From Phycisphaeraceae bacterium (GTDB lineage Bacteria > Planctomycetota > Phycisphaerae > Phycisphaerales > Phycisphaeraceae): a DNA stretch of 10,353 nucleotides. Made by a program: the position numbers and the translations under genes. Positions 2-10,353 of the stretch are shown here, piece after piece; position 1 is the stretch's first letter; each line of letters begins with the position of its first letter. The DNA lies in the NCBI GenBank assembly GCA_007119405.1, contig SKPT01000374.1:1-10353 (forward strand). Reading direction: 5' to 3'. The notes beneath the pieces are model-generated. The model was not told the DNA's origin. It did no database searches and worked only from the letters and a program-made list of their open reading frames with translations.

Positions 2-631
2 GGCCCCGATCTGCGCGAGCTGCTGACCGGCATCGCGGTGCTGAGCCGGGCCCGCGAGGCCGCGCGCTGGCGGGCCTTCGACCTGGAGGTCCACGCCCCG
101 CCCGGCTGGCGCCTCGACACCGTGCAGGTCAACCCCGCCGACGCCTCCCTGCGCTTCAAACCCGCGAGCAAGGATGGGCGTAAGCAGCGCAGCGCCGCCG
201 GCATGGAGGTCGCCGGCCCCGAGCTGGTCGTGCGGCGGATGGGCATGGCCTCGAGCTGGTACAAGGGCCCCGAGGCCCTTTTGCGCAAGGCCCTTGGCCG
301 CGACGTGGACTTCGAGATGGCCGCGGCCCACCACCCGCCGCACAACGCCGTGCGGGCGATCTCGGACGAGCAGGGCACGCGGCTGCGACGTTACGCCGGT
401 CGGCTTCGCCGCCGCGAGGACGTGATCTGGCATTGCCAGCGCGAGAACGCGGTGTACCAGTTGACGCGGATGTCGGCCCCGTCGCGCGGGCCGGGTGCCC
501 GTCAGGCCCCGGCGGCCCTGCCGGAGGTCGACGGCGGGATCCCGATGGCGACGGCGGTGGCGGGCGAGGGAGGTTTTCGGGTAGGCTGTTGCGGTCGTCG
601 CGAGGAGCCGGGCAGATGGCTAAACGGCTGA
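2..631 (+). CDS. Hypothetical protein, 5'-truncated by window edge
   Basis: The reading frame is open from the first bases and ends at TGA 629-631, giving 209 residues of a protein whose start lies outside the window. A GTG at 38 is in frame, but nothing marks it as the true start because the frame continues upstream. I do not recognise the family. The N-terminal two thirds look like a folded soluble domain, including the stretch FDLEVHAPPGWRLDTVQVNP and a later VIWHCQRENAVYQL strand-like segment. The last ~50 residues are rich in Gly, Pro, Ala and Arg and are probably disordered. I see no signal peptide or membrane segment in the visible part. Its final 16 nt overlap the start of the PqqD-like gene, so the two are probably translated together and may act together. 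Coding is supported by codon bias and by this tight linkage, not by homology. Confidence 0.6.
   Translation, partial: GPDLRELLTGIAVLSRAREAARWRAFDLEVHAPPGWRLDTVQVNPADASLRFKPASKDGRKQRSAAGMEVAGPELVVRRMGMASSWYKGPEALLRKALGRDVDFEMAAAHHPPHNAVRAISDEQGTRLRRYAGRLRRREDVIWHCQRENAVYQLTRMSAPSRGPGARQAPAALPEVDGGIPMATAVAGEGGFRVGCCGRREEPGRWLNG
602..607 (+). promoter_or_regulatory. Ribosome binding site of the PqqD-like gene
   Basis: GAGGAG lies 8 nt before the ATG at 616, inside the coding sequence of the preceding gene. It is the reason for choosing 616 as the start, although the frame is open further upstream to an ATG at 433. The sequence between 433 and 615 translates to a Gly/Arg/Asp-rich string with no domain character. 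Confidence 0.6.
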
Positions 632-1032
632 AAGGAAAAGAGTTGGCCCGCGTCCAGCGCCGGGCGAGCCGACACCTGCTCGACGCGGTGCCGGTGGTCA
701 ACCAGGCCGTGCGCGTCAAGCAGCACGGCAAGACGCTGCTCGTGGAAGTGCCCATCCAGCAGCGCTGGTGGATGGGCCCGCCGCTGAGCTGGTTCTGCCA
801 GTTCCGCGATCGCAAGCGCTACCTGCTCGACGAGCAGGGCCAGGAGCTGTGGCGGCTGTGCAACGGCAAGCGGCGAACGGAGGAGATCGTGGAGAAGTTC
901 GCCGCACGCCACCAGTTGCGCTTCCACGAGGCGCGCGTCGCGGTGATGGAGTACCTTGGCACGCTCCTGAAGCGCAAGCTGATGGTCATGGTGATGCCCC
1001 CGGCCCCGGGCTCGCGGAGTGAGGACGCATGA
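616..1032 (+). CDS. PqqD-like small protein (RRE fold)
   Basis: This 138-residue protein resembles the PqqD family. Residues about 25-68 would form the N-terminal beta sheet, with an unusual Trp-rich stretch, RWWMGPPLSWF, at 50-60. Residues 72-123 give the family's helical half: the LDEQGQELWRLCNGKRRTEE region (72-90), where PqqD proteins have an 'xxGxxIWxLlDGxrTveEI' pattern, followed by a last helix ending in LLKRKLM. In known systems such domains bind the leader of a ribosomally made peptide and hand it to a maturation enzyme; others have no assigned role. No radical SAM enzyme and no obvious precursor peptide is visible here, so a RiPP function is only a possibility. The gene overlaps its upstream neighbour by 16 nt and the downstream permease by ATGA (1029-1032), which argues for translation coupled to the ABC transporter. 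The family call is from pattern recognition; function is unknown. Confidence 0.72.
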   Translation: MAKRLKGKELARVQRRASRHLLDAVPVVNQAVRVKQHGKTLLVEVPIQQRWWMGPPLSWFCQFRDRKRYLLDEQGQELWRLCNGKRRTEEIVEKFAARHQLRFHEARVAVMEYLGTLLKRKLMVMVMPPAPGSRSEDA

Positions 1033-2501
1033 AGCCGATCGAGGCGAGGCAGCAGGTCAAGCTCGGGCCCCGGCGGTGCTTCCAGTTGGCGCTGTCGGGC
1101 ATGTCCTATCGCCTGTTCCGCTCCATGATCACCGTCGCCATCCTCGCCCTGGCGGTGGCGTTCCTGGTGCACATGCTGGCCTACGGGCTGCTGGCGCACG
1201 AGACGGAGCTGCAGGCGGCGCGCGAGCTGCGCGAGAGCCGGTCCCTGGGCCAGATCCTCACCCGCGTCACCAGCCCCGACGCCACCGCGTCGATCGTCGA
1301 CCGCCTGGCCGAGGACGACGACGCCCGCCTGGCCGAGTACCAGGCCTGGTCGGGGCTGGACGAAGCCGCGTTCGCCGAGGTCGTCGACGCCGCCCGCGAC
1401 CGGGCCGCGGCGCGCGAGCATCTGATCAGCCTGCCGTTGGCGCAGCGGGTCCGCCTGATGGGCGAGGTCGAGGCCGAGGGCCTGTTCGCGCGGTTGCGCG
1501 ACGCCGATCGCTGGCAGCGCTTCGCCGACGACGTCGAGGAGCTGGGCGTGCGCCCGCCGCTGGGCGACATGGCCGCGTTCAAGCAGTTGATCGACGAGCG
1601 CCGGCCGCGGCTGCTCGAGGCGGCCTCCGCCATCCACCAGGGCCACCGCGAGGCCATCGCTGCCCTGGACCGGGCCTATCCCGACCGCTCGCCGCGGGAG
1701 CTGTTCATCGATCGGCCGGCGGGCCTGGGCCAAACCCTGCGCGAGCTGGGCTTCGCCGTCGACGACGAACGCCTCGACGCCGTCGGCGCCTTCGCCCGCC
1801 GCGCCAGGGACATGGACCGGCTGACCGAGCTGATGACCGAGCCGGACGTGCGTGCGGCCGTGGCCCGGCGAATGAACATCTCGCCCGGCGACGTGACCTA
1901 CGACGCGACGCTGCGCTACGTCGCCGGCGGGCGCGGCGACTGGTTCGCCTCCGTCCTCGCCGACGCCACCGCCCCGCCGCAGCTCGCCGACGGCGAGCAC
2001 CTGACCGCGCTGGCGCGCGACTACCGCCGCGAGCAGCGCCTCGACGCCGTCGTCACCGACATCAACATCCAGCCACGCCAGGGGCTGTTCGGCCTTCCCG
2101 CGCAGACGATGTGGCTGATCGGCCTGTCGTTCATGGTCTGCGTCGTGGGCGTGGCCAACGCCATGCTCATGTCCGTGACCGAGCGCTTCACCGAGATCGC
2201 CACCATGAAGTGCCTCGGCGCCATGGACGGGTTCGTGATGATGATGTTCGTCTTCGAGGCCGTCATCCAGGGCCTCGTCGGCGGGGTGATCGGCGTGATC
2301 CTGGGCTCCCTGCTGGCGCTGTTGCGCGGCGCGGTCGAGTATGGCGGGCTGCTCGGCGGCGCCAGCACCGTCATCGACGAGGTGGCGATCGCCGCGGCGA
2401 TGTCGCTCGTGATCGGCGTGGCCCTGGCGGCCTTCGCCGCGATCGGCCCGGCCTGGGTCGCCGCCCGCCTGGCGCCCATGGAGGCGATGCGGGTCGAGTA
2501 A
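1029..2501 (+). CDS. FtsX-like ABC transporter permease (MacB/LolC type)
   Basis: The 490-residue product has the layout of a type VII (MacB/LolCDE/FtsX) ABC permease. There is one membrane helix near the N-terminus (about 33-54), a large extracytoplasmic region (about 56-359), then three helices (about 361-383, 402-432 and 453-474). The FtsX hallmark TERFTEIATMKCLGA at 384-398 follows the second helix; it corresponds to the coupling region that contacts the ATPase. The C-terminus, PAWVAARLAPMEAMRVE, is the typical MacB-family ending. The extracytoplasmic region is rich in Glu, Arg, Asp, Ala and Leu and looks mostly helical, unlike the mixed alpha/beta MacB periplasmic domain, so its partner is unclear. 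The start is ATG 1029, overlapping the previous stop by ATGA, with GAGGA at 1021-1025 close by and GGAG at 1016-1019. It should pair with the ATPase at 2546 and probably with the giant permease at 3334. Confidence 0.9.
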   Translation: MKPIEARQQVKLGPRRCFQLALSGMSYRLFRSMITVAILALAVAFLVHMLAYGLLAHETELQAARELRESRSLGQILTRVTSPDATASIVDRLAEDDDARLAEYQAWSGLDEAAFAEVVDAARDRAAAREHLISLPLAQRVRLMGEVEAEGLFARLRDADRWQRFADDVEELGVRPPLGDMAAFKQLIDERRPRLLEAASAIHQGHREAIAALDRAYPDRSPRELFIDRPAGLGQTLRELGFAVDDERLDAVGAFARRARDMDRLTELMTEPDVRAAVARRMNISPGDVTYDATLRYVAGGRGDWFASVLADATAPPQLADGEHLTALARDYRREQRLDAVVTDINIQPRQGLFGLPAQTMWLIGLSFMVCVVGVANAMLMSVTERFTEIATMKCLGAMDGFVMMMFVFEAVIQGLVGGVIGVILGSLLALLRGAVEYGGLLGGASTVIDEVAIAAAMSLVIGVALAAFAAIGPAWVAARLAPMEAMRVE

Positions 2502-2545: not shown

Positions 2546-3337
2546 ATGACTGAGCCGACCACCACGAACGTCCACGAGCAGGCCGCCGCCGCCGACACCG
2601 GCGACGACCGGGCCACCATCATCCGCACGCTGGGCCTGGAGAAGCGCTACGGCGAGGGCGAGGCCACCACCTACGCCCTGCGCGGCGTGGACTCGAAGAT
2701 CCGCCGCGGCGAGCTGATCGCCGTCATGGGCCCGTCCGGCTCGGGCAAGAGCACCTACTTCAACATGATCGGCGCCCTGGACTCGCCGACCAAGGGCCGC
2801 ATCCTCATCGACGAGGTCGACGTCGCCCAGCTCTCGGCCGTCGAGCTCGCCTTCCTGCGCTGCCGCAAGATCGGCTACATCTTCCAGAGCTACAACCTCA
2901 TCAGCTACATGACCTGCCTCGAGAACGTCACCGTGCCCATGACCTTCGCCGGCGTGCAGCCCGAGCAGGCACGCAAGCGCGGCATGGAGCTGCTGGCGCT
3001 CGTGGGCCTGGCCGACCGCTGGGACCACCGCCCCATCGAGATGTCCGGCGGGCAGCAGCAGCGCACCGCCATCGCCCGCTCCATGAGCAACCAGCCGCGC
3101 ATCCTCCTGGCCGACGAGCCCACCGCCAACCTGGACCTGAAGACCGGCCAGGCCATCCTCGACATCCTCGAGCGCATCAACAAGGAGCGCGAGGTCACCG
3201 TCGTCTGCTCGACGCACGACCATCGCCTGCTGAACGTCTGCGACCGCATCATGTGGATCCGTGACGGCCGCGTCGAACGCGTCGAAGAGCGCAAGGACCT
3301 GACCATCAAGCTCGGACGCATTGGAGGCGAGGCATGA
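2546..3337 (+). CDS. ABC transporter ATP-binding protein (LolD/MacB-type)
   Basis: The 263-residue cytoplasmic ATPase has every motif needed for activity: Walker A GPSGSGKST (62-70), Q-loop Gln114 in YIFQSYNL, signature MSGGQQQR (166-173, with Met for the usual Leu), Walker B ILLADEP (186-192), D-loop NLDL (195-198) and switch His224 in STHDH. The FQSYNL segment and the overall length match the LolD/MacB/FtsE group, which powers FtsX-fold permeases that move extracytoplasmic domains rather than forming a classic channel. The first ~25 residues are an Ala/Thr/Asp-rich extension before the first beta strand. The gene sits between two different FtsX-type permeases, so one ATPase dimer driving an asymmetric permease pair, as in LolCDE, is the simplest reading. 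Its TGA (3335-3337) overlaps the next ATG (3334). The family assignment is secure; the substrate is not visible. Confidence 0.96.
   Translation: MTEPTTTNVHEQAAAADTGDDRATIIRTLGLEKRYGEGEATTYALRGVDSKIRRGELIAVMGPSGSGKSTYFNMIGALDSPTKGRILIDEVDVAQLSAVELAFLRCRKIGYIFQSYNLISYMTCLENVTVPMTFAGVQPEQARKRGMELLALVGLADRWDHRPIEMSGGQQQRTAIARSMSNQPRILLADEPTANLDLKTGQAILDILERINKEREVTVVCSTHDHRLLNVCDRIMWIRDGRVERVEERKDLTIKLGRIGGEA
3323..3327 (+). promoter_or_regulatory. Ribosome binding site before the giant permease
   Basis: GGAGG stands 6 nt before ATG 3334, an almost ideal Shine-Dalgarno position, and that ATG overlaps the ATPase stop as ATGA. This favours 3334 as the initiation codon although the next ~73 codons are repeat sequence. 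No comparable purine-rich site precedes any later in-frame start candidate. Confidence 0.6.
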
Positions 3338-6300
3338 GCAGAATAACGCACAATGCAGAATGCCCAATGCAGAAATGCCTGATGCTTGCCCGGATGCGGA
3401 TCGGGGCGCCGGGTGCCACTGACAAGCGCAGTCCGCGGAGCTTGTCAGTGCCGTCCGCCCGGTGGCACCACCCGCCCACCGGGTGCCACGGCTTGTCCGC
3501 GAAGCGGCAAGCCGGGCGGCGCGCCACCGACACGCGACTCGCCCCTGGGCTCAAGCCCTGGCATGCGCTGGTCACGCTCGCCCTGGCGATGCTCGTCGCC
3601 CTGAGCCCCGCCGCCGCCCTCGCCGACGACGACGCCGAGGCGCAGTTCCAGGCCGACCTGGCGGCGCTGACGGCGCATCCGCATCGGCTCTCGGGCACCG
3701 CCGAGGCGTGGGACGCGGCCGAGCACATCGAGCAGCGGCTGAGCCGGATCGGCGTCACCGACATGCTGCCGCTGGACATGGCCGTCTGGCAGACGCGCAT
3801 CGAGCGCTGCGAGCTGAGCGTCGGCGAGGTGGCCGTGCCGCTGGTGCCCCTGCGCCCCAACGTCACCGTCCCGCCGACGACGCCCGACGAAGGGCTCACC
3901 GGCCCGCTGCTGTACGTCGGCCGCGGCGCGATGCGCGACTACGGGGATCGCTCGCCCGAGGGGGCGATCGTCGTGATGGACTACGACAGCGGCCGCAACT
4001 GGCAGCTCGCCTTCGCGCTGGGCGCCCAGGCGGTGATCTTCCTCGAGCACGAGCAGGCCGCCACCCCCGTCCAGGCCAAGCACGTGGGGGTGCCCGCCAA
4101 CCAGGTGCGGCTGTACGCCGACCGCGACGCCCAACGCGCCGCCGCCGAGGCGGGCCTCGACCTGCGCCGCGACCACGACCAGGCCACCGTCGTCAGCCAC
4201 GTCTCCTGGCAGCGGAAGCTCGGCCGCAACATCATCGCCCGCATCGAGGGCACCGACCCCGCCTTCGAGCGTCACGCCGACCAGCGCGAGACGCTCGTGC
4301 TCGCCGCGCACTACGACAGCTTCGGCGCCGTGCCGCGACGCAGCCCGGGCGCGCGCTCGGCGGCGAACGTCGCGGCGCTGCTGGAGCTGGCCCAGCGCAT
4401 CGCCGCCGACCCGCCGCGACGCGACGTCGTGCTGCTGTTCCTTGACAACCAGGCCCGCTACCACCAGGGCGCCCGCGAGTTTTACTGGGCGCTGGAAGGT
4501 GACGAGTACGACGACGAGGGCGTCAGCGCCCAGGGCGAGTACCACGCCGAGGAGCACGATTTCGTGCTTCAGATGCGCGACTGGCTGGCGCGCGACGGGC
4601 TGAGCTACGACCGCGACGAGGATCGCATCGTGGCGGGTCGGCTGCGGGCGACGCTGGCGTCCGTCGCCGACGCCCGCCGCGGCGACTGGAGCCAGCGCCT
4701 CCGCGTGCTGCGCCTGGAGATGGACCCGCTGCGTCGCACGCTCGAGATCGCCGAGACCGATGTCGAGCGGTTGCCCGGCCGGATCGAGGCCCTGGAGGCC
4801 GAGATCGCCGCGGCCGAGGACGACGACGAGCTCGAATCGTTGCGCCAGCGCCGCCGCGACAAGGTCGCGCTGCTGGACCAGCGCCGGCGCGAACTCAACG
4901 AGATCCCCCCGCGCCTCGAGCCGATGGAGGAGCAGGAGCAGCGCTGGGACGCCCGCCGCACGCGCTGGGACGACGTGCGCCGCGAGCTGCATCACGATCG
5001 CCTGCGCGACTTCTACCTGCGCATGCAGCGCTACCGCGCCGGGGACATCGACGACGACGAGATCACCGCCCAGCTCAGCCGCGAGGACCTGATGGCGCGC
5101 GGCCACGAGTTCACACCCATCTTCGAGGACCTCGAGTCCCTGACGATGCAGCGCCTGGAGAACCGCCTGGCCGAGCTCGATCAGCTCCGCGCCATCGACG
5201 CCCAGCGCGAGGCGATCCACGCCGTGCTCGGCGACGCCCACGTCGCCCTGCACGCGACGCTGAACCTGTCTGACGGCGGCGGCCGCTGGGGCGCCGTCGT
5301 CGGCGACTGGACCCACCGCATCTACCACTTCCGCGGCACCAGCGCGCAGGCGGACAGCCCGGGCTACTACACACGGGTGCTCGCGGCGCTGAACCGCGCC
5401 ACGGACGTGCTCGGCGAGGACAGCCGGCTCGAGCCGCGCACCCTGCGCGACACGATGCTGGGCATGAGCTTCGCCCCCCAGCCATTCGTCAACAGCGGCG
5501 CGATCGCCGGGAGCTTCGGGTTCTACAACCTGGCGATGATGACCGGCCACGACGCGCGCCCGCGCGACGGCCACCCCGCTGACACGCTCGATCGCCTGGA
5601 CTGGCGCAACCTGCGCGCCCACGCCGCCGAAGCCGGCGCCCTCCTGCACGCCGTCGCCGAGACCGAGGCACTGTCGCTGGGCGCGCGCTTCAACGCGCAG
5701 GTGCGCAGCAAGCACCAGAGCTGGGCCAACAACCGCTCGCGGGGCGATTACGTCGGCATCCAGGTCGTCGGCGGCCTGGCCGAGGATCGCCCCGCCGCCG
5801 GCGCCCTGCTGGCGGTGTACCCGCGCACCGGGCAGCAGCGCAACTGGACGGAGCTGCGCGACATCGACCTCGTGCGCGACTACGACCCGATCATGCTCGA
5901 ACCGGTGGACGAGAACGGCCGGTTCCGCATCCTCGCCGCTCGCAACGACATCCACAACGACCTGGCCACGCTCGGGGCGCTGTTCGACGACGCCGGCCGC
6001 GTCACCGCCATCACGCAGCAGGGCGCGCTGCATCACAACCTGACCAGCGCCATCCGCGTCGAGTTGTTCCGCGCCAGCGGCGTGTCGCTGACGAGCATGC
6101 AGAGCTACCAGCTCCGCCCGCAGTTGCTGCGCCTGCTGCGGGCGTCGACCAACGCCAGCTTCCGCGACAACGAGGCGCTGTGGGGCCAGCTCGGCGGCAG
6201 CACGTTCTTCTACATCGAAGACGCCGTCGTCGACGACCGCATCAAGATCTTCCAGCCCATGGGCCCGGTGCTGCTGAACATCGCCGACGCCCCCCCCTTC

Positions 6301-8697
6301 GGCGCCGGCTTCTCCGCCGCCACGCTCGGCCCGGCGCTGCCCCTGGCCGAGCAGGCCTCGGCCGACGTCTGGCTGCTCAACGAGCACCGCCTGCGCCAGT
6401 TGCGCAGCCGCGGCGTCAGCAGCATCGACCTGGAGCTGCTGCACAGCCGCTCACGCCAGGCCACCGACCGCGCCGACGACGCCGTCACCCTCGCCCAGTT
6501 CACCGCCGCCCACATGCAGGGCGCGGCCCTGGGGCACAAGGTCTACGGCCCGCTGCGCCAGGCCATGGACGACCTCGTCCACGCCATCGTCCTGCTGCTG
6601 CTGCTGACCATCCCCTTCGCCTTCGCGCTCGAACGCCTGCTGGTGTGCTCCACGAGCGTCTACGGCCGGATCCTCGGCTTCACCGCCGCCTTCCTCGTCA
6701 CCTTCGGGCTGCTGTTCTTCATGCACCCGGGCTTCGCCATCGCCGCCACGCCCATCGTCATCTTCCTCGCCTTCGCCATCATCCTGCTCTCGGGGCTGGT
6801 GATCTACCTGGTCGTGCGCAAGTTCCGCGTCGAGCTGCGCGCCTTGCAGGGCCAGCGCGTGGGCGTGCATGACGCCAGCGTCAGCCACGCCGGGACGCTG
6901 CTCGCGGCCGTGGGCATGGGCATGTCCACCATGCGCCGCCGGCCGACGCGCACCACGCTCACCGCCATCACGGTGATCATGCTCACGTTCACGATCCTGG
7001 GCTTCGCCTCGTTCACGCGCACCATCGGCGTGCGCACCGTCTACGAGGGCCCGGTCACCGAGCTGATGCCCAGCGGCATGCTCATGCGCAACCTCGACTA
7101 CTCGCGCCTGCCCCACGACCTGACGCGCCTGCTCGAAGGCTACAGCGGTGACGACGGCCTGCTGGCCGAGCACTGGTGGCGCGTCCGCGAGAACGGCGAC
7201 GAGCCCGCCATCAACGTCGCGACCGTCACCGACGGCCAGGCCCAGCGCCTCGACGCCGTGCTCGGCATCATGCCCGAGGAGCTCGAGCGCTGGCCGGGCC
7301 TGGCGCGGGCCCTGGGCGAGGGCGAGCTCGCCGCCAAGCAGCAGGCCCTGGCCGACGGCGGCGTGTTCCTGCCACGCATCTACCGCGAGCTGCTCGACCT
7401 GGAAATCGGCGACCCCGTGCGCATCGACGGCCGCACGCTCACCTTCGTCGGCACCCTCGACGGGCCCGAGCTCCAACGCCTGCGCCAGCTCGACCGCAAC
7501 GCGATGCTTCCGGTCAACTTCCAGGACGTCACCGGCGAGGGGCTCGACGACGACCCCGACGAGACCGAGCTGCTGATCGCCGACGAGGTCGACCGCGACT
7601 TCACCTACTTGAGCGCCGACCAGGTCGCCATCACCTCGACCGACGTCGTGCGCGAGCTCGGCGGCGACCTGCACGTGCTGACGCTCTACCCCGACGAGGA
7701 CATCGACCCCCGCGACCAGGGCCGGGCGCTCGCCGAGCTGCTGGTCATGCCCGTCTGGGTCGCCGGGCCCGAGGGCGTCGAGCGCATGATCCTGACCGTG
7801 CTCACCGAGGTCACCGGCGGCCTGGCGCTGGCGGTGCCCGTGCTGCTGGGCGGGCTGATCATCTTCGGCACGCTGCTGGGCTCGATCAGCGACCGCGAGC
7901 GGGAGATCTACACGTTCAGCGCCTTGGGCCTGTCGCCCGGGCACGTGGGCGTGCTCTTCTTCGCCGAGGCCGCCGTCTACGCCGTCGTCGGCGGCATGGG
8001 CGGGCAGTTGCTCGCCCAGGCGGTGGCACTGGTCGCCACGCAGCTCGCCGCCATGGGCTGGATCGACCCGCCGTCGATCAACTACTCCTCGACCAACTCG
8101 CTGTTCGCCATCGGCATCGTCATGGCGACGGTCATGGTCTCGGCCATCTATCCCGCCATGCGCGCCTCGCGCAGCGCCAACCCGGGCCTGGCCCGGGCCT
8201 GGCGCATGCCCGCGCCCGAGGGCGACGAGATCCACATGAAGTTCCCCTTCACCGTCTCGGCCTACGACATCACCGGCGTGGTCAGCTTCCTCGCCGAGCA
8301 CTTCCGCCGTCACGACGACGCCGGCCTGGGCAACTTCGCCGCCACCGACGTCCAGGTCCGCCGCGACGACAAGGGCAACCTCGAGCTCGCCGCCGAGCTC
8401 GCCCTGGCCCCGTTCGACCTGGGCGTCACCCAGCACCTGACCCTCACCGCCGTGCCCTCGGAGATCGAGGGCGTCGACGAGGTCATGGTCCACGTCCACC
8501 GCATCAGCGGCGCCCGCGGCGACTGGTACCGCTCCAACAAGGTCTTCATCCGCGACCTGCGCCGCCAGTTCCTGCTCTGGCGCACGCTGAGCAACGAGCT
8601 GATCGAGCGCTACCGCATGGAGACCTTGCAGAGCCTGGGCGAGCGGCCGAGCGAGCCCGAGACCACGCAACCCGAGCCCGCGGGGGGACGGGCGTGA
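3334..8697 (+). CDS. Giant FtsX-like permease with degenerate M28 peptidase domain
   Basis: The frame of 1787 codons encodes, in order: a repeat-derived leader (1-73); a signal-peptide or signal-anchor segment (about 74-97, ending SPAAALA); an M28-aminopeptidase-like domain from HPHRLSGT (115-122) with a PA-like insert (about 189-270) and a core from His326 to Phe383; an acidic, mostly helical insertion (about 390-630, coiled coil about 452-567); the resumed M28 fold (about 632-775, with GHPADT at 746-751); a beta-rich region (about 804-880); and further extracytoplasmic sequence. Seven predicted helices follow at about 1082-1104, 1113-1131, 1134-1161, 1209-1228, 1496-1516, 1538-1568 and 1589-1608. 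The FtsX hallmark DREREIYTFSALGLS lies between helices 5 and 6. A soluble C-terminal domain covers about 1635-1770. Several M28 metal and catalytic residues are replaced, so peptidase activity is unlikely. It is probably the second permease for the ATPase upstream. The start at 3334 is uncertain; the rest of the frame is secure. Confidence 0.88.
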   Translation: MSRITHNAECPMQKCLMLARMRIGAPGATDKRSPRSLSVPSARWHHPPTGCHGLSAKRQAGRRATDTRLAPGLKPWHALVTLALAMLVALSPAAALADDDAEAQFQADLAALTAHPHRLSGTAEAWDAAEHIEQRLSRIGVTDMLPLDMAVWQTRIERCELSVGEVAVPLVPLRPNVTVPPTTPDEGLTGPLLYVGRGAMRDYGDRSPEGAIVVMDYDSGRNWQLAFALGAQAVIFLEHEQAATPVQAKHVGVPANQVRLYADRDAQRAAAEAGLDLRRDHDQATVVSHVSWQRKLGRNIIARIEGTDPAFERHADQRETLVLAAHYDSFGAVPRRSPGARSAANVAALLELAQRIAADPPRRDVVLLFLDNQARYHQGAREFYWALEGDEYDDEGVSAQGEYHAEEHDFVLQMRDWLARDGLSYDRDEDRIVAGRLRATLASVADARRGDWSQRLRVLRLEMDPLRRTLEIAETDVERLPGRIEALEAEIAAAEDDDELESLRQRRRDKVALLDQRRRELNEIPPRLEPMEEQEQRWDARRTRWDDVRRELHHDRLRDFYLRMQRYRAGDIDDDEITAQLSREDLMARGHEFTPIFEDLESLTMQRLENRLAELDQLRAIDAQREAIHAVLGDAHVALHATLNLSDGGGRWGAVVGDWTHRIYHFRGTSAQADSPGYYTRVLAALNRATDVLGEDSRLEPRTLRDTMLGMSFAPQPFVNSGAIAGSFGFYNLAMMTGHDARPRDGHPADTLDRLDWRNLRAHAAEAGALLHAVAETEALSLGARFNAQVRSKHQSWANNRSRGDYVGIQVVGGLAEDRPAAGALLAVYPRTGQQRNWTELRDIDLVRDYDPIMLEPVDENGRFRILAARNDIHNDLATLGALFDDAGRVTAITQQGALHHNLTSAIRVELFRASGVSLTSMQSYQLRPQLLRLLRASTNASFRDNEALWGQLGGSTFFYIEDAVVDDRIKIFQPMGPVLLNIADAPPFGAGFSAATLGPALPLAEQASADVWLLNEHRLRQLRSRGVSSIDLELLHSRSRQATDRADDAVTLAQFTAAHMQGAALGHKVYGPLRQAMDDLVHAIVLLLLLTIPFAFALERLLVCSTSVYGRILGFTAAFLVTFGLLFFMHPGFAIAATPIVIFLAFAIILLSGLVIYLVVRKFRVELRALQGQRVGVHDASVSHAGTLLAAVGMGMSTMRRRPTRTTLTAITVIMLTFTILGFASFTRTIGVRTVYEGPVTELMPSGMLMRNLDYSRLPHDLTRLLEGYSGDDGLLAEHWWRVRENGDEPAINVATVTDGQAQRLDAVLGIMPEELERWPGLARALGEGELAAKQQALADGGVFLPRIYRELLDLEIGDPVRIDGRTLTFVGTLDGPELQRLRQLDRNAMLPVNFQDVTGEGLDDDPDETELLIADEVDRDFTYLSADQVAITSTDVVRELGGDLHVLTLYPDEDIDPRDQGRALAELLVMPVWVAGPEGVERMILTVLTEVTGGLALAVPVLLGGLIIFGTLLGSISDREREIYTFSALGLSPGHVGVLFFAEAAVYAVVGGMGGQLLAQAVALVATQLAAMGWIDPPSINYSSTNSLFAIGIVMATVMVSAIYPAMRASRSANPGLARAWRMPAPEGDEIHMKFPFTVSAYDITGVVSFLAEHFRRHDDAGLGNFAATDVQVRRDDKGNLELAAELALAPFDLGVTQHLTLTAVPSEIEGVDEVMVHVHRISGARGDWYRSNKVFIRDLRRQFLLWRTLSNELIERYRMETLQSLGERPSEPETTQPEPAGGRA
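3351..3378 (+). repeat. Degenerate AATGC heptamer repeat inside the giant gene's 5' end
   Basis: Successive units of about seven bases (CAATGCA, GAATGCC, CAATGCA, then an 8-base GAAATGCC) form an AT-richer island in otherwise very GC-rich DNA, starting shortly after the ATPase stop. The 12-mer AATGCAGAATGC at 3352-3363 recurs twice in the tract behind the giant gene (8713-8724 and 8727-8738). If translation starts at 3334 this tract is coding. Confidence 0.7.
3411..3513. repeat. Cluster of REP-like palindromes (GGGTGCCAC family)
   Basis: GGGTGCCAC occurs twice in direct orientation (3411-3419 and 3481-3489), with its near complement GTGGCACC between them (3462-3469). A perfect 11-bp inverted repeat, CACTGACAAGC (3417-3427) with GCTTGTCAGTG (3440-3450), has a 12-nt loop. 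A second hairpin, GGCTTG at 3490-3495 with CAAGCC at 3508-3513, extends inward with CCGC (3497-3500) and GCGG (3504-3507) around a GAA loop, with one bulged T. The arrangement is like a REP/BIME element and looks like interspersed repeat DNA rather than ordinary coding sequence, yet the giant gene's frame reads through it. From memory, similar palindromes occur dispersed in planctomycete genomes; this was not checked. Confidence 0.7.
3547..3558. repeat. Short palindrome GGGCTCAAGCCC
   Basis: GGGCT and AGCCC can pair around a CA loop, and the flanking CC/GG bases extend the stem past a T-T mismatch. It directly follows the REP-like cluster and directly precedes the codons for the signal-peptide-like segment, so it may mark the downstream edge of the inserted repeat block. 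It is short and could be chance. Confidence 0.4.
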
Positions 8698-8746
8698 GAA
8701 TTCAGAATTCAAAATGCAGAATGCGGAATGCAGAATGCGGAATGCG
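8698..8746 (+). repeat. Seven tandem heptamers (consensus GAATKCR)
   Basis: Forty-nine bases directly after the giant gene's TGA divide into seven units of seven: two GAATTCA units, one AAATGCA, then alternating GAATGCG and GAATGCA forms. The tract is AT-rich against its surroundings. It fills about half of the 93-nt gap before the next gene and shares the 12-mer AATGCAGAATGC with the tract at 3351-3378. No hairpin followed by a T-run is present, so it does not look like an intrinsic terminator, and the operon probably continues through it. Function is unknown. Confidence 0.85.
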
Positions 8747-8790: not shown

Positions 8791-10353
8791 GTGAGCGAGC
8801 AGTCGAACAACCCACCCCCGACGCAGCGGCTGGACGCGGAGCTGGAGGAGTTCCGCTCGCTCATGGAGCCGCCCTCGAGCTTCGAGGACGGCTTCAGTTG
8901 GGCCACCTTCCTCGGCGCCATCTTCGTCGCCCTGCTCATGGTCCCGGGCTCGATCTACATGACCCTGATCGCCGGCACCGGCTCGGTCGGGCCGGCGGCG
9001 CAGTGGGTCACCGTCATCCTCTTCATCGAGGTCGCCCGCCGCGCCAACAAGTCCCTGCGCAAGGCCCAGCTCTTCACCCTCTTCTATGTCGCCGGCGCGA
9101 TCATGGTCACCGTCTCCCAGCTCGAGGGCAACTTCCACGGCGGCATGGGCGCGCTCTGGGCCCAGTTCTACCGCACCTCCGACGCCGCCACCGCCGCCGG
9201 CGTCGCCGAGCAGATCCCCGACTGGGTCGCCCCATCCGACCCGCGAATCCTCGACCAACGCAGCCTCTTCCAGTGGGAGTGGCTGCCGGCGCTGGGCCTG
9301 ATCGCCTTCAACATGATCATCGGCCGGCTGGACAACATGGTCCTGGGCTACGGGCTGTTCCGCCTGACCAGCGACCTCGAGCGCCTGCCCTTTCCCATGG
9401 CCCCGGTCCAGGCCCAGGGCATCATCGCCCTGGCCGAGGAGCAGGAAGAGGAGCTCGCCAGCCAGGTCTCCGCCACCGACGAGCCCGAGGACGACGGCCG
9501 ACCCGCCAACTGGCGCTGGCGCGTCTTCTCCATCGGCGCCATGCTCGGGCTGGTCTTCGGCCTGATCTACCTCGGCCTGCCCACCGTCACCGGCGCCCTG
9601 CTCGACGCCCCCATCACCATCCTTCCCGTGCCCTTCATCGACTACACCGCCGAGACCGCCGAGCTGCTCAACGCCGTGCCCATCGCCATCGCCCTGGACC
9701 TGGGCCTGGTCATCCTCGGCATGGTCCTGCCCTTCTGGGCCATGGTCGGCAGCTTCGTCGGCCTGCTGATCACCGTCGTCGTCAACCCCATCCTTTACAA
9801 CGGCTTTCCCGAATGGCTCCCGCTGCTCGGCGCCTTCCAGGGTGACATCCTCACCACCTGGAACCCCGGCGACAACATGCAGCAGACCTTCTACAAGAAC
9901 AACATCGACTTCTACTTCAGCTTCTCCATCGGCATCGCGCTCGCCATCGCGCTCGTCGGCTTCTGGAGCGTCGGCCGCGGACTCATCCAGTACCGCCGAC
10001 GCAAGCAGGACGAGGAGCTCTCGCTCAGCGAACGCATGGCCCGCACCGTCCCCGAAGGACGCGGCGACATCCCCCCCATCCTCATCTTCGGCGTCTACCT
10101 CTTCGTCTCCAGCCTCTACATCACCGTCTCGACCTGGCTGCTCTACACCGTCGACCGGGAAATGGGCATCCACTGGAACGTCGTCGCCGTCATGTGCTTC
10201 TACGCCTTCCTCTACACCCCCCTGGTCAGCTACGTCTCGGCCCGCCTCGAGGGCATCGCCGGCGAGGTCGTCAACATCCCCTTCGTCCGCGAAGCCACCC
10301 TCATCCTCTCCGGCTACCAGGGCGTCGCCGTCTGGTTCATGCCCCTGCCCTTC
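8791..10353 (+). CDS. OPT-like oligopeptide transporter family protein, 3'-truncated
   Basis: The frame opens at GTG 8791 and runs without a stop for 521 codons to the window edge. After a hydrophilic, acidic N-terminus (about 1-36) the protein is strongly polytopic. Helices are visible at about 37-61 and 95-112 and repeatedly thereafter, with a cytoplasm-like charged loop rich in Glu around EEQEEELASQVSATDEPEDD. The motif LPFPMAPV (199-206), after GLFRLTSDLER, resembles the Pro-rich motif near the middle of OPT family carriers, which import peptides or metal chelates with protons. Segments such as RWRVFSIGAMLGLVFGLIYLG also fit bacterial 'peptide transporter' members as I remember them. It is the last visible gene in the run, 93 nt after the giant permease. 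The membrane-carrier call is firm; OPT membership is likely but should be tested by profile search, and the substrate is not known. Confidence 0.68.
   Translation, partial: MSEQSNNPPPTQRLDAELEEFRSLMEPPSSFEDGFSWATFLGAIFVALLMVPGSIYMTLIAGTGSVGPAAQWVTVILFIEVARRANKSLRKAQLFTLFYVAGAIMVTVSQLEGNFHGGMGALWAQFYRTSDAATAAGVAEQIPDWVAPSDPRILDQRSLFQWEWLPALGLIAFNMIIGRLDNMVLGYGLFRLTSDLERLPFPMAPVQAQGIIALAEEQEEELASQVSATDEPEDDGRPANWRWRVFSIGAMLGLVFGLIYLGLPTVTGALLDAPITILPVPFIDYTAETAELLNAVPIAIALDLGLVILGMVLPFWAMVGSFVGLLITVVVNPILYNGFPEWLPLLGAFQGDILTTWNPGDNMQQTFYKNNIDFYFSFSIGIALAIALVGFWSVGRGLIQYRRRKQDEELSLSERMARTVPEGRGDIPPILIFGVYLFVSSLYITVSTWLLYTVDREMGIHWNVVAVMCFYAFLYTPLVSYVSARLEGIAGEVVNIPFVREATLILSGYQGVAVWFMPLPF

Follow-up and report, generated by a model that had tools for sequence, protein, structure and literature searches.

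M28 enzymes hold zinc through five ligands, which we take to be His, Asp, Glu, Asp and His, and glutaminyl cyclase, which has the M28 fold, holds a single zinc through Asp, Glu and His. The transferrin receptor, nicalin and nicastrin are inactive M28-fold proteins of eukaryotes. Type VII ABC proteins are described in PMC12646458 as typically paired with a periplasmic partner, and PMC5985334 describes ATP hydrolysis in type VII ABC proteins of the MacB kind as coupled to work outside the membrane. Here we analysed a DNA stretch in which features of both groups meet in one protein. The stretch (hereafter the window) comprises 10,353 nucleotides (positions 1 to 10,353 of contig SKPT01000374.1, assembly GCA_007119405.1, Phycisphaeraceae bacterium) and holds six genes, all on the plus strand, to which all coordinates below refer. 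Its giant permease is encoded by an open reading frame called at 3334..8697 (1787 amino acids plus stop). That this protein joins a dead M28 domain to a type VII permease core can be taken as practically certain. As a reading of the whole, with a probability of roughly 50%, we propose that it belongs to a pseudopeptidase-ABC machine gripping a peptide or protein.

The extracytoplasmic part of the giant (residues 98-1076; 3625..6561) was delimited from an AlphaFold2 model, fold matches and profile alignment. It comprises an M28-fold domain with a region that is PA-type by alignment to YwaD and with a helical insert, followed by a beta-rich region. A first-pass annotation made from the letters alone had proposed a dead M28 fold fused to an ABC permease and had suggested a profile search and a structure prediction; both were run, and together with a homologue profile and the ligand counts given below they bear the proposal out. 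Pfam Peptidase_M28 matched residues 299-384 with 37.7 bits (cut-off 21.3, E 2.3e-9), the model of residues 88-1087 reached a pLDDT of 94.8 and a pTM of 0.92 and had M28 aminopeptidases among its fold matches, and a profile built from nine distant homologues matched the aminopeptidases 2ek8 (E 4.1e-18) and YwaD (6hc6, E 5.3e-17). By homology, with a profile score above the curated cut-off, and by fold, the domain thus belongs to M28. Chance similarity is ruled out by the profile, the fold and about 300 homologues, and a frameshift or chimera by long open frames in many separate records. The Pfam PA domain (PF02225) gave no match in the window giant, whose region was aligned only by profile to PA-containing enzymes; some homologues, e.g. 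P0071, carry a precomputed PF02225 match. As helices in the model show, the M28 domain is interrupted at about residues 399-632 (4528..5229) by a coiled-coil-like insert, the least conserved of eight regions compared. Downstream, hydropathy revealed three hydrophobic stretches (residues 1077-1166; 6562..6831) ahead of an FtsX/MacB-like core that runs from TM1 (residues 1207-1229) over an extracytoplasmic loop to the end of TM2-4 at residue 1613 (6952..8172; PF02687, hydropathy and family profile). PF02687 (FtsX) matched residues 1498-1613 with 38.3 bits (E 1.6e-9), and the family profile of the giant matched MacB, YtrF and LolC chains. The four-helix FtsX-type core with a large extracytoplasmic loop after TM1, as predicted from PF02687 and hydropathy, is that of a type VII protein.

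We next consider the zinc site, of which four columns were fixed by profile alignment to M28 enzymes and the Asp column of the NLD strand was read from the family alignment. The motifs quoted in the first-pass annotation lie where it had placed them, i.e. HYDS at 326-329, PGARSAANVAALLELA at 338-353, FLDNQARYHQGAREF at 369-383, NLS at 644-646 and GHPADTLDRLD at 746-756, except that its end coordinate 5580 cuts the last motif, as Asp756 ends at 5601. In the family alignment the HxD motif reads His326-Tyr-Asp328 (4309..4317). Profile and family alignments place Arg341 in the bridging Asp column (4354..4356), Gln373-Ala374 in that of the catalytic and ligand Glu pair (4450..4455), and Gly746 in the late His column with His747 in the adjacent Thr column (5569..5574); Asn644 occupies the Asp-ligand column of the NLD strand (5263..5265; family alignment). 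The columns therefore read H326, R341, A374, N644 and G746, leaving His326 as the single remaining ligand of five, short of the set of an active M28 enzyme. Three of the earlier residue assignments needed correction. The bridging Asp, assigned to Arg341/Ser342, falls on Arg341 alone because the giant has a one-residue deletion relative to the following helix, and the Asp missing from NLS is lost at Asn644 in that motif. Of the two histidines thought to remain, only His326 stands in a ligand column, that of HxD. The late His column holds Gly746, and His747, which aligns with the Thr of the enzymes (HTPxDT versus GHPADT), cannot be counted as a ligand that survived. Likewise, the site of glutaminyl cyclase is absent, as R341, A374 and G746 stand at its Asp, Glu and His columns.

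Loss of the zinc site extends across the family. Three homologue searches formed the basis of these counts, the second covering the best 120 of 255 matches and the third the best 120 of 196, which added 112 proteins; 315 of 317 proteins including the window protein were examined, P0087 being left out for its other architecture and P0079 for its missing M28 part. Every column was filled in 203 of 204 sequences. Of these, 39 retain the first His, 51 the bridging Asp, none the ligand Glu, 138 the NLD Asp and 2 the late His, and no sequence kept more than three of the five ligands. Asp328 of the HxD motif was present in all 203. The catalytic Glu, which is Gln373 in the window protein, was found in 11 and the Glu-Glu pair in none, and column 374 was never Glu or Asp. 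Within a close group of 69 sequences, window protein included, column 341 was Arg in 68, answering the earlier suggestion to follow this replacement in homologues, and Gly746 and Asp328 were present in all 69; 33 members kept no ligand, 30 kept one and 6 kept two. None of the 315 sequences had a full zinc site, so that database names such as 'M28 family peptidase' are misleading for this family, and an active M28 enzyme or glutaminyl cyclase is excluded by the ligand columns across it. The family instead offers numerous natural cases in which an enzyme site has been converted to a different use. P0087, a different fusion of an MFS transporter with an M28 domain, has intact HxD, Asp and Glu-Glu columns; it served as an intact control for the first half of the site, since its two late columns were misaligned. 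In P0080-P0086 and P0140 (2422-2468 amino acids) an extra LysM domain, a peptidoglycan-binding type, is annotated (PF01476, precomputed).

The dead domain is not decaying. Over 68 close sequences (the partial P0004 was left out), mean column entropy was 1.18 in five active-site-equivalent loops, with boundaries set by us, versus 1.96 in the remaining domain, and when the loop mask was shifted circularly, 1 of 451 shifts gave an entropy as low. Asp328, Arg341, Asn345, Asp371, Gly379, Arg381, Asp740, Arg744, Gly746, Pro748 and Asp750 were among the most conserved loop positions. For the 14 of 28 sequence pairs printed, several of them with dS above 1, dN/dS ranged from 0.083 to 0.361 in the PA/M28 part and from 0.037 to 0.138 in the FtsX core. 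The domain is under purifying selection and, judged from the sequences, is still used; a decaying pseudodomain is ruled out by this selection and the loop conservation. These data also bear on the strongest rival, in which the M28 domain acts as a structural spacer or as a dimerisation platform, like the ectodomain of the transferrin receptor, to which the M28 model of the giant gave strong fold matches, with an empty cleft and with substrate meeting the FtsX part or the beta-rich region. We regard it as unlikely, if a serious contender, because conservation of the active-site-equivalent loops so far above that of the remaining domain, as the 1 in 451 shifts indicates for loops bounded by the analyst, is not what one expects of a simple spacer.

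The giant is embedded in a recurrent gene cassette. A LolD/MacB-type ABC ATPase (2546..3337; ABC_tran E 2.3e-31, top NCBIfam model LolD) with Walker A, signature and Walker B motifs all present lies upstream, preceded by a second FtsX-type permease of 490 amino acids (1029..2501; PF02687 E 7.4e-12) and a PqqD-like protein (616..1032; PF05402 E 4.4e-8, 33.8 bits versus a cut-off of 23.4). The window opens with the C-terminal part of a first cassette protein with tandem PsbP/Mog1/DcrB-like domains (2..631); this piece had no Pfam match and was assigned by 38% identity to L007:4294-5190, whose protein gave a model with a pLDDT of 94.1 and the corresponding fold matches. Downstream of the giant, an OPT-like transporter (8791..10353) is cut by the window end. 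This piece also had no Pfam match, and its assignment rests on 46% identity to a piece in the Oligosphaera ethanolica DSM 24202 locus (L043), whose full protein matches OPT (PF03169, E 3.2e-8).

The closest named relatives of the giant, among the matches listed, are proteins from Phycisphaeraceae metagenome-assembled genomes (MAGs). A contig scan over one genome per species gave at least 545 confirmed places for the giant, the best 80 of which were used as named loci and so lean to the clade of the window. Record labels of the loci include Planctomycetota, Verrucomicrobia, Lentisphaerae, Kiritimatiellae, Chitinivibrionales and Omnitrophota among others, and one Myxococcales MAG. Among genomes sampled from the phylum of L007, at least 34 of 294 have a match to the giant, and among those from the phylum of L043 at least 50 of 288; both are lower bounds, as only two first-look candidates per genome were scored. 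A contig scan with a single sequence as query gave no confirmed place, nor did a viral-contig scan for archaeal gene context.

Neighbours were counted at named loci with enough sequence on the given side, by same strand and side within the locus and not by strict adjacency. The ATPase lies upstream of the giant in 58 of 59 loci, the FtsX permease is a neighbour in 55 of 55, the PqqD-like gene in 47 of 53 and the first cassette protein in 43 of 51, and the OPT-like gene lies downstream in 73 of 73. A second ATPase was found in 55 of 57 (54 of 57 without L036, where it is a 147-base piece 5.3 kb away). All six neighbours were present in 33 loci (32 without L036), and the Oligosphaera ethanolica DSM 24202 locus carries the whole cassette. 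In 32 of the 80 loci a DUF6785 gene was detected (both queries are DUF6785 by Pfam), and a multi-helix DUF6785/DUF6784 gene lies near or inside the cassette, e.g. L007:1593-4241 and L047:3185-5269. Zinc ligands were scored in 65 of the 80 loci, 15 being dropped for an empty ligand column; 50 kept none and 15 kept one. At twenty diverged loci (L081-L100), hand-picked from match lists and not random, the paralogues kept 0 to 2 ligands, and the OPT-like gene adjoins the giant in 20 of 20 with changed order. BLAST matches to many of these paralogues lay mainly over the C-terminal half, and a swapped N-terminal domain was considered and rejected, since in all 20 the family profile extended into the N-terminal part. 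One of them, L098, is a second, diverged giant in Oligosphaera ethanolica, accompanied by differently arranged OPT, DUF6785, FtsX, PqqD-like and ATPase genes.

Building on the computed fold, loss of zinc ligands, conservation of active-site loops, FtsX core and cassette, we suggest that the giant supplies one half of the permease in a type VII ABC machine built from different subunits. Its likely partners, both encoded just upstream, are the 490-aa permease and the LolD-type ATPase, in an arrangement like that in which LolC, LolE and LolD cooperate. At the outside end, the M28 aminopeptidase domain, having lost its zinc site, would not cut; its old cleft, presumably lined by Asp328, Arg341, Asn345, Asp371, Arg381, Asp740, Arg744 and Asp750, would bind a peptide or protein on the outward side of the membrane, and ATP hydrolysis inside would move the domain by mechanotransmission. 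The PqqD-like, PsbP/Mog1-like and OPT-like proteins, the second ATPase and the giant may constitute one peptide- or protein-handling system. Reuse of the peptidase as a binding module, as the first-pass annotation had proposed, gains indirect support from the unusually conserved old active-site loops, the purifying selection and the PqqD-like and OPT-like neighbours. For a peptide or protein as ligand we see even odds: the PqqD-like and OPT-like neighbours would favour a peptide, and the Mog1/Eag-like protein would also fit a protein ligand with membrane segments.

Several observations weigh against the proposed peptide- or protein-gripping machine. The PqqD-like and OPT-like names hint at peptides but express a resemblance to families, and metal chelates too are carried by OPT proteins. 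The OPT-like assignment itself depends on mutual similarity of the neighbours and on three of six scanned full-length proteins reaching the PF03169 cut-off of 25.8 (L043 with 33.1 bits, L098 with 29.0 and L047 with 27.6); the full-length neighbours in L001, L007 and L012 had no PF03169 match. An upstream PqqD-like gene was not found in 6 of the 53 named loci with room for it and was present in only 8 of the 20 diverged loci. Moreover, of the two parts it is the M28 part, not the FtsX core, that has the higher rate of evolution in each of the 14 printed pairs. The system might alternatively serve envelope maintenance, acting on lipids, lipoproteins or membrane proteins like LolCDE or YbbAP-TesA, with the dead M28 domain binding a protein partner and not a transported peptide. 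We consider this somewhat less probable still than a spacer role: LolD is the top model for the ATPase, but its score of 215 bits lies under the LolD equivalog cut-off of 307.75, and the OPT-like and PqqD-like neighbours point to peptides. The 490-aa permease likewise falls short of the LolC/E equivalog (37 versus 362.45 bits), and the duplicated ADOP permease model TIGR03434 was not reached (25.8 versus 622.3 bits).

More ligands survive in distant members of the family. Among 246 such members (a gap, present in one, was scored as lost), 8 kept no ligand, 128 kept one, 60 kept two and 50 kept three. In 46 of the 246, within P0157-P0287, H326, D341 and D644 are all present, presumably the residues that hold one zinc ion of the pair; these members may represent a one-metal state. 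Among the matches listed, eight of the 46 carry an organism name, and all eight are archaeal. The catalytic Glu column holds His in 219 of the 246. That hydrolytic or cyclase activity persists through a different or mononuclear metal site is very improbable: 38 of these 46 have His at the catalytic Glu column and the PDB title of 2anp, among the fold matches, calls a Glu151-to-His aminopeptidase mutant functional, but the window protein keeps only His326 with Arg in the bridging-ligand column, and no member among the 246 has Glu in the ligand Glu column (one has Asp) and 4 retain the late His, the very Glu and His that glutaminyl cyclases need.

The start of the giant was probably called too early. 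Six copies of AATGCNGAATGC (at most one mismatch) occur in the window versus 0.07 expected, all at the two gene borders flanking the giant frame (3352-3370 and 8713-8745); they look like non-coding DNA, which suggests that 3334 is not the true start. The only in-frame start among residues 56-100 is an ATG at 3589, near which translation probably begins. Residues 78-96 (3565..3621) form a signal sequence or anchor by hydropathy and in-frame start scan, and homologue P0002 begins at about the equivalent place. An imperfect inverted repeat of 18 bases (83% complementary) lies at 3410-3457, between the AATGCNGAATGC repeats and the likely true start.

Tentatively, and with considerable doubt, the data could be extended to a family of pseudopeptidase-ABC motors that is ancient and shared by bacteria and archaea. 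Polypeptides would be gripped in the cleft of the dead aminopeptidase and pulled or gated by the type VII motor. In PVC-group bacteria the motor and the OPT-like, PqqD-like and Mog1-like proteins would then form a new peptide or protein translocation system, and the half zinc site of some archaeal members would be an intermediate. Each of the two components, inactive M28 proteins and type VII ABC systems, is known by itself; it is their fusion and the cassette that set the present case apart. Neither such a fusion nor such a cassette was described in the literature searched, whose coverage lay outside most subscription journals and bioRxiv preprints, and no published function was found there for the cassette, which recurs across PVC-group genomes. 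Type VII ABC systems use separate extracytoplasmic partners according to PMC12646458, and a covalently fused inactivated peptidase, if true, would be a new way to give a type VII motor substrate grip.

Compared with the M28 aminopeptidases 2ek8, YwaD/BSAP (6hc6) and the prototype 1amp, the giant shares the fold and the order of active-site segments, and the sequence likeness to 2ek8 and YwaD also covers the N-terminal region, where these two enzymes have their PA domain. It differs from them in having lost four of five zinc ligands and the catalytic Glu, in its helical insert and in its fusion to an ABC permease. The comparison with nicastrin made in the first-pass annotation is fair in principle and rests on little, nicalin being only a weak sequence match (E 0.049); nicalin has been modelled on nicastrin in PMC7505659. 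Nicastrin and nicalin belong to eukaryotic complexes in which APH1 or TMEM147 is the partner subunit. Neither protein was among the 50 fold matches listed, which is no evidence against them. Unlike the prokaryotic giant, the transferrin receptor, nicalin and nicastrin serve as receptor or scaffold subunits and have no ABC motor. With MacAB-TolC, FtsEX-EnvC, LolCDE-LolA and YbbAP-TesA the giant shares an FtsX-type core, a LolD/MacB-type ATPase as its putative partner and an extracytoplasmic partner (PMC12646458). Unlike in those type VII systems, this extracytoplasmic part is a dead peptidase joined covalently to the permease, and PqqD-like and OPT-like genes accompany it.
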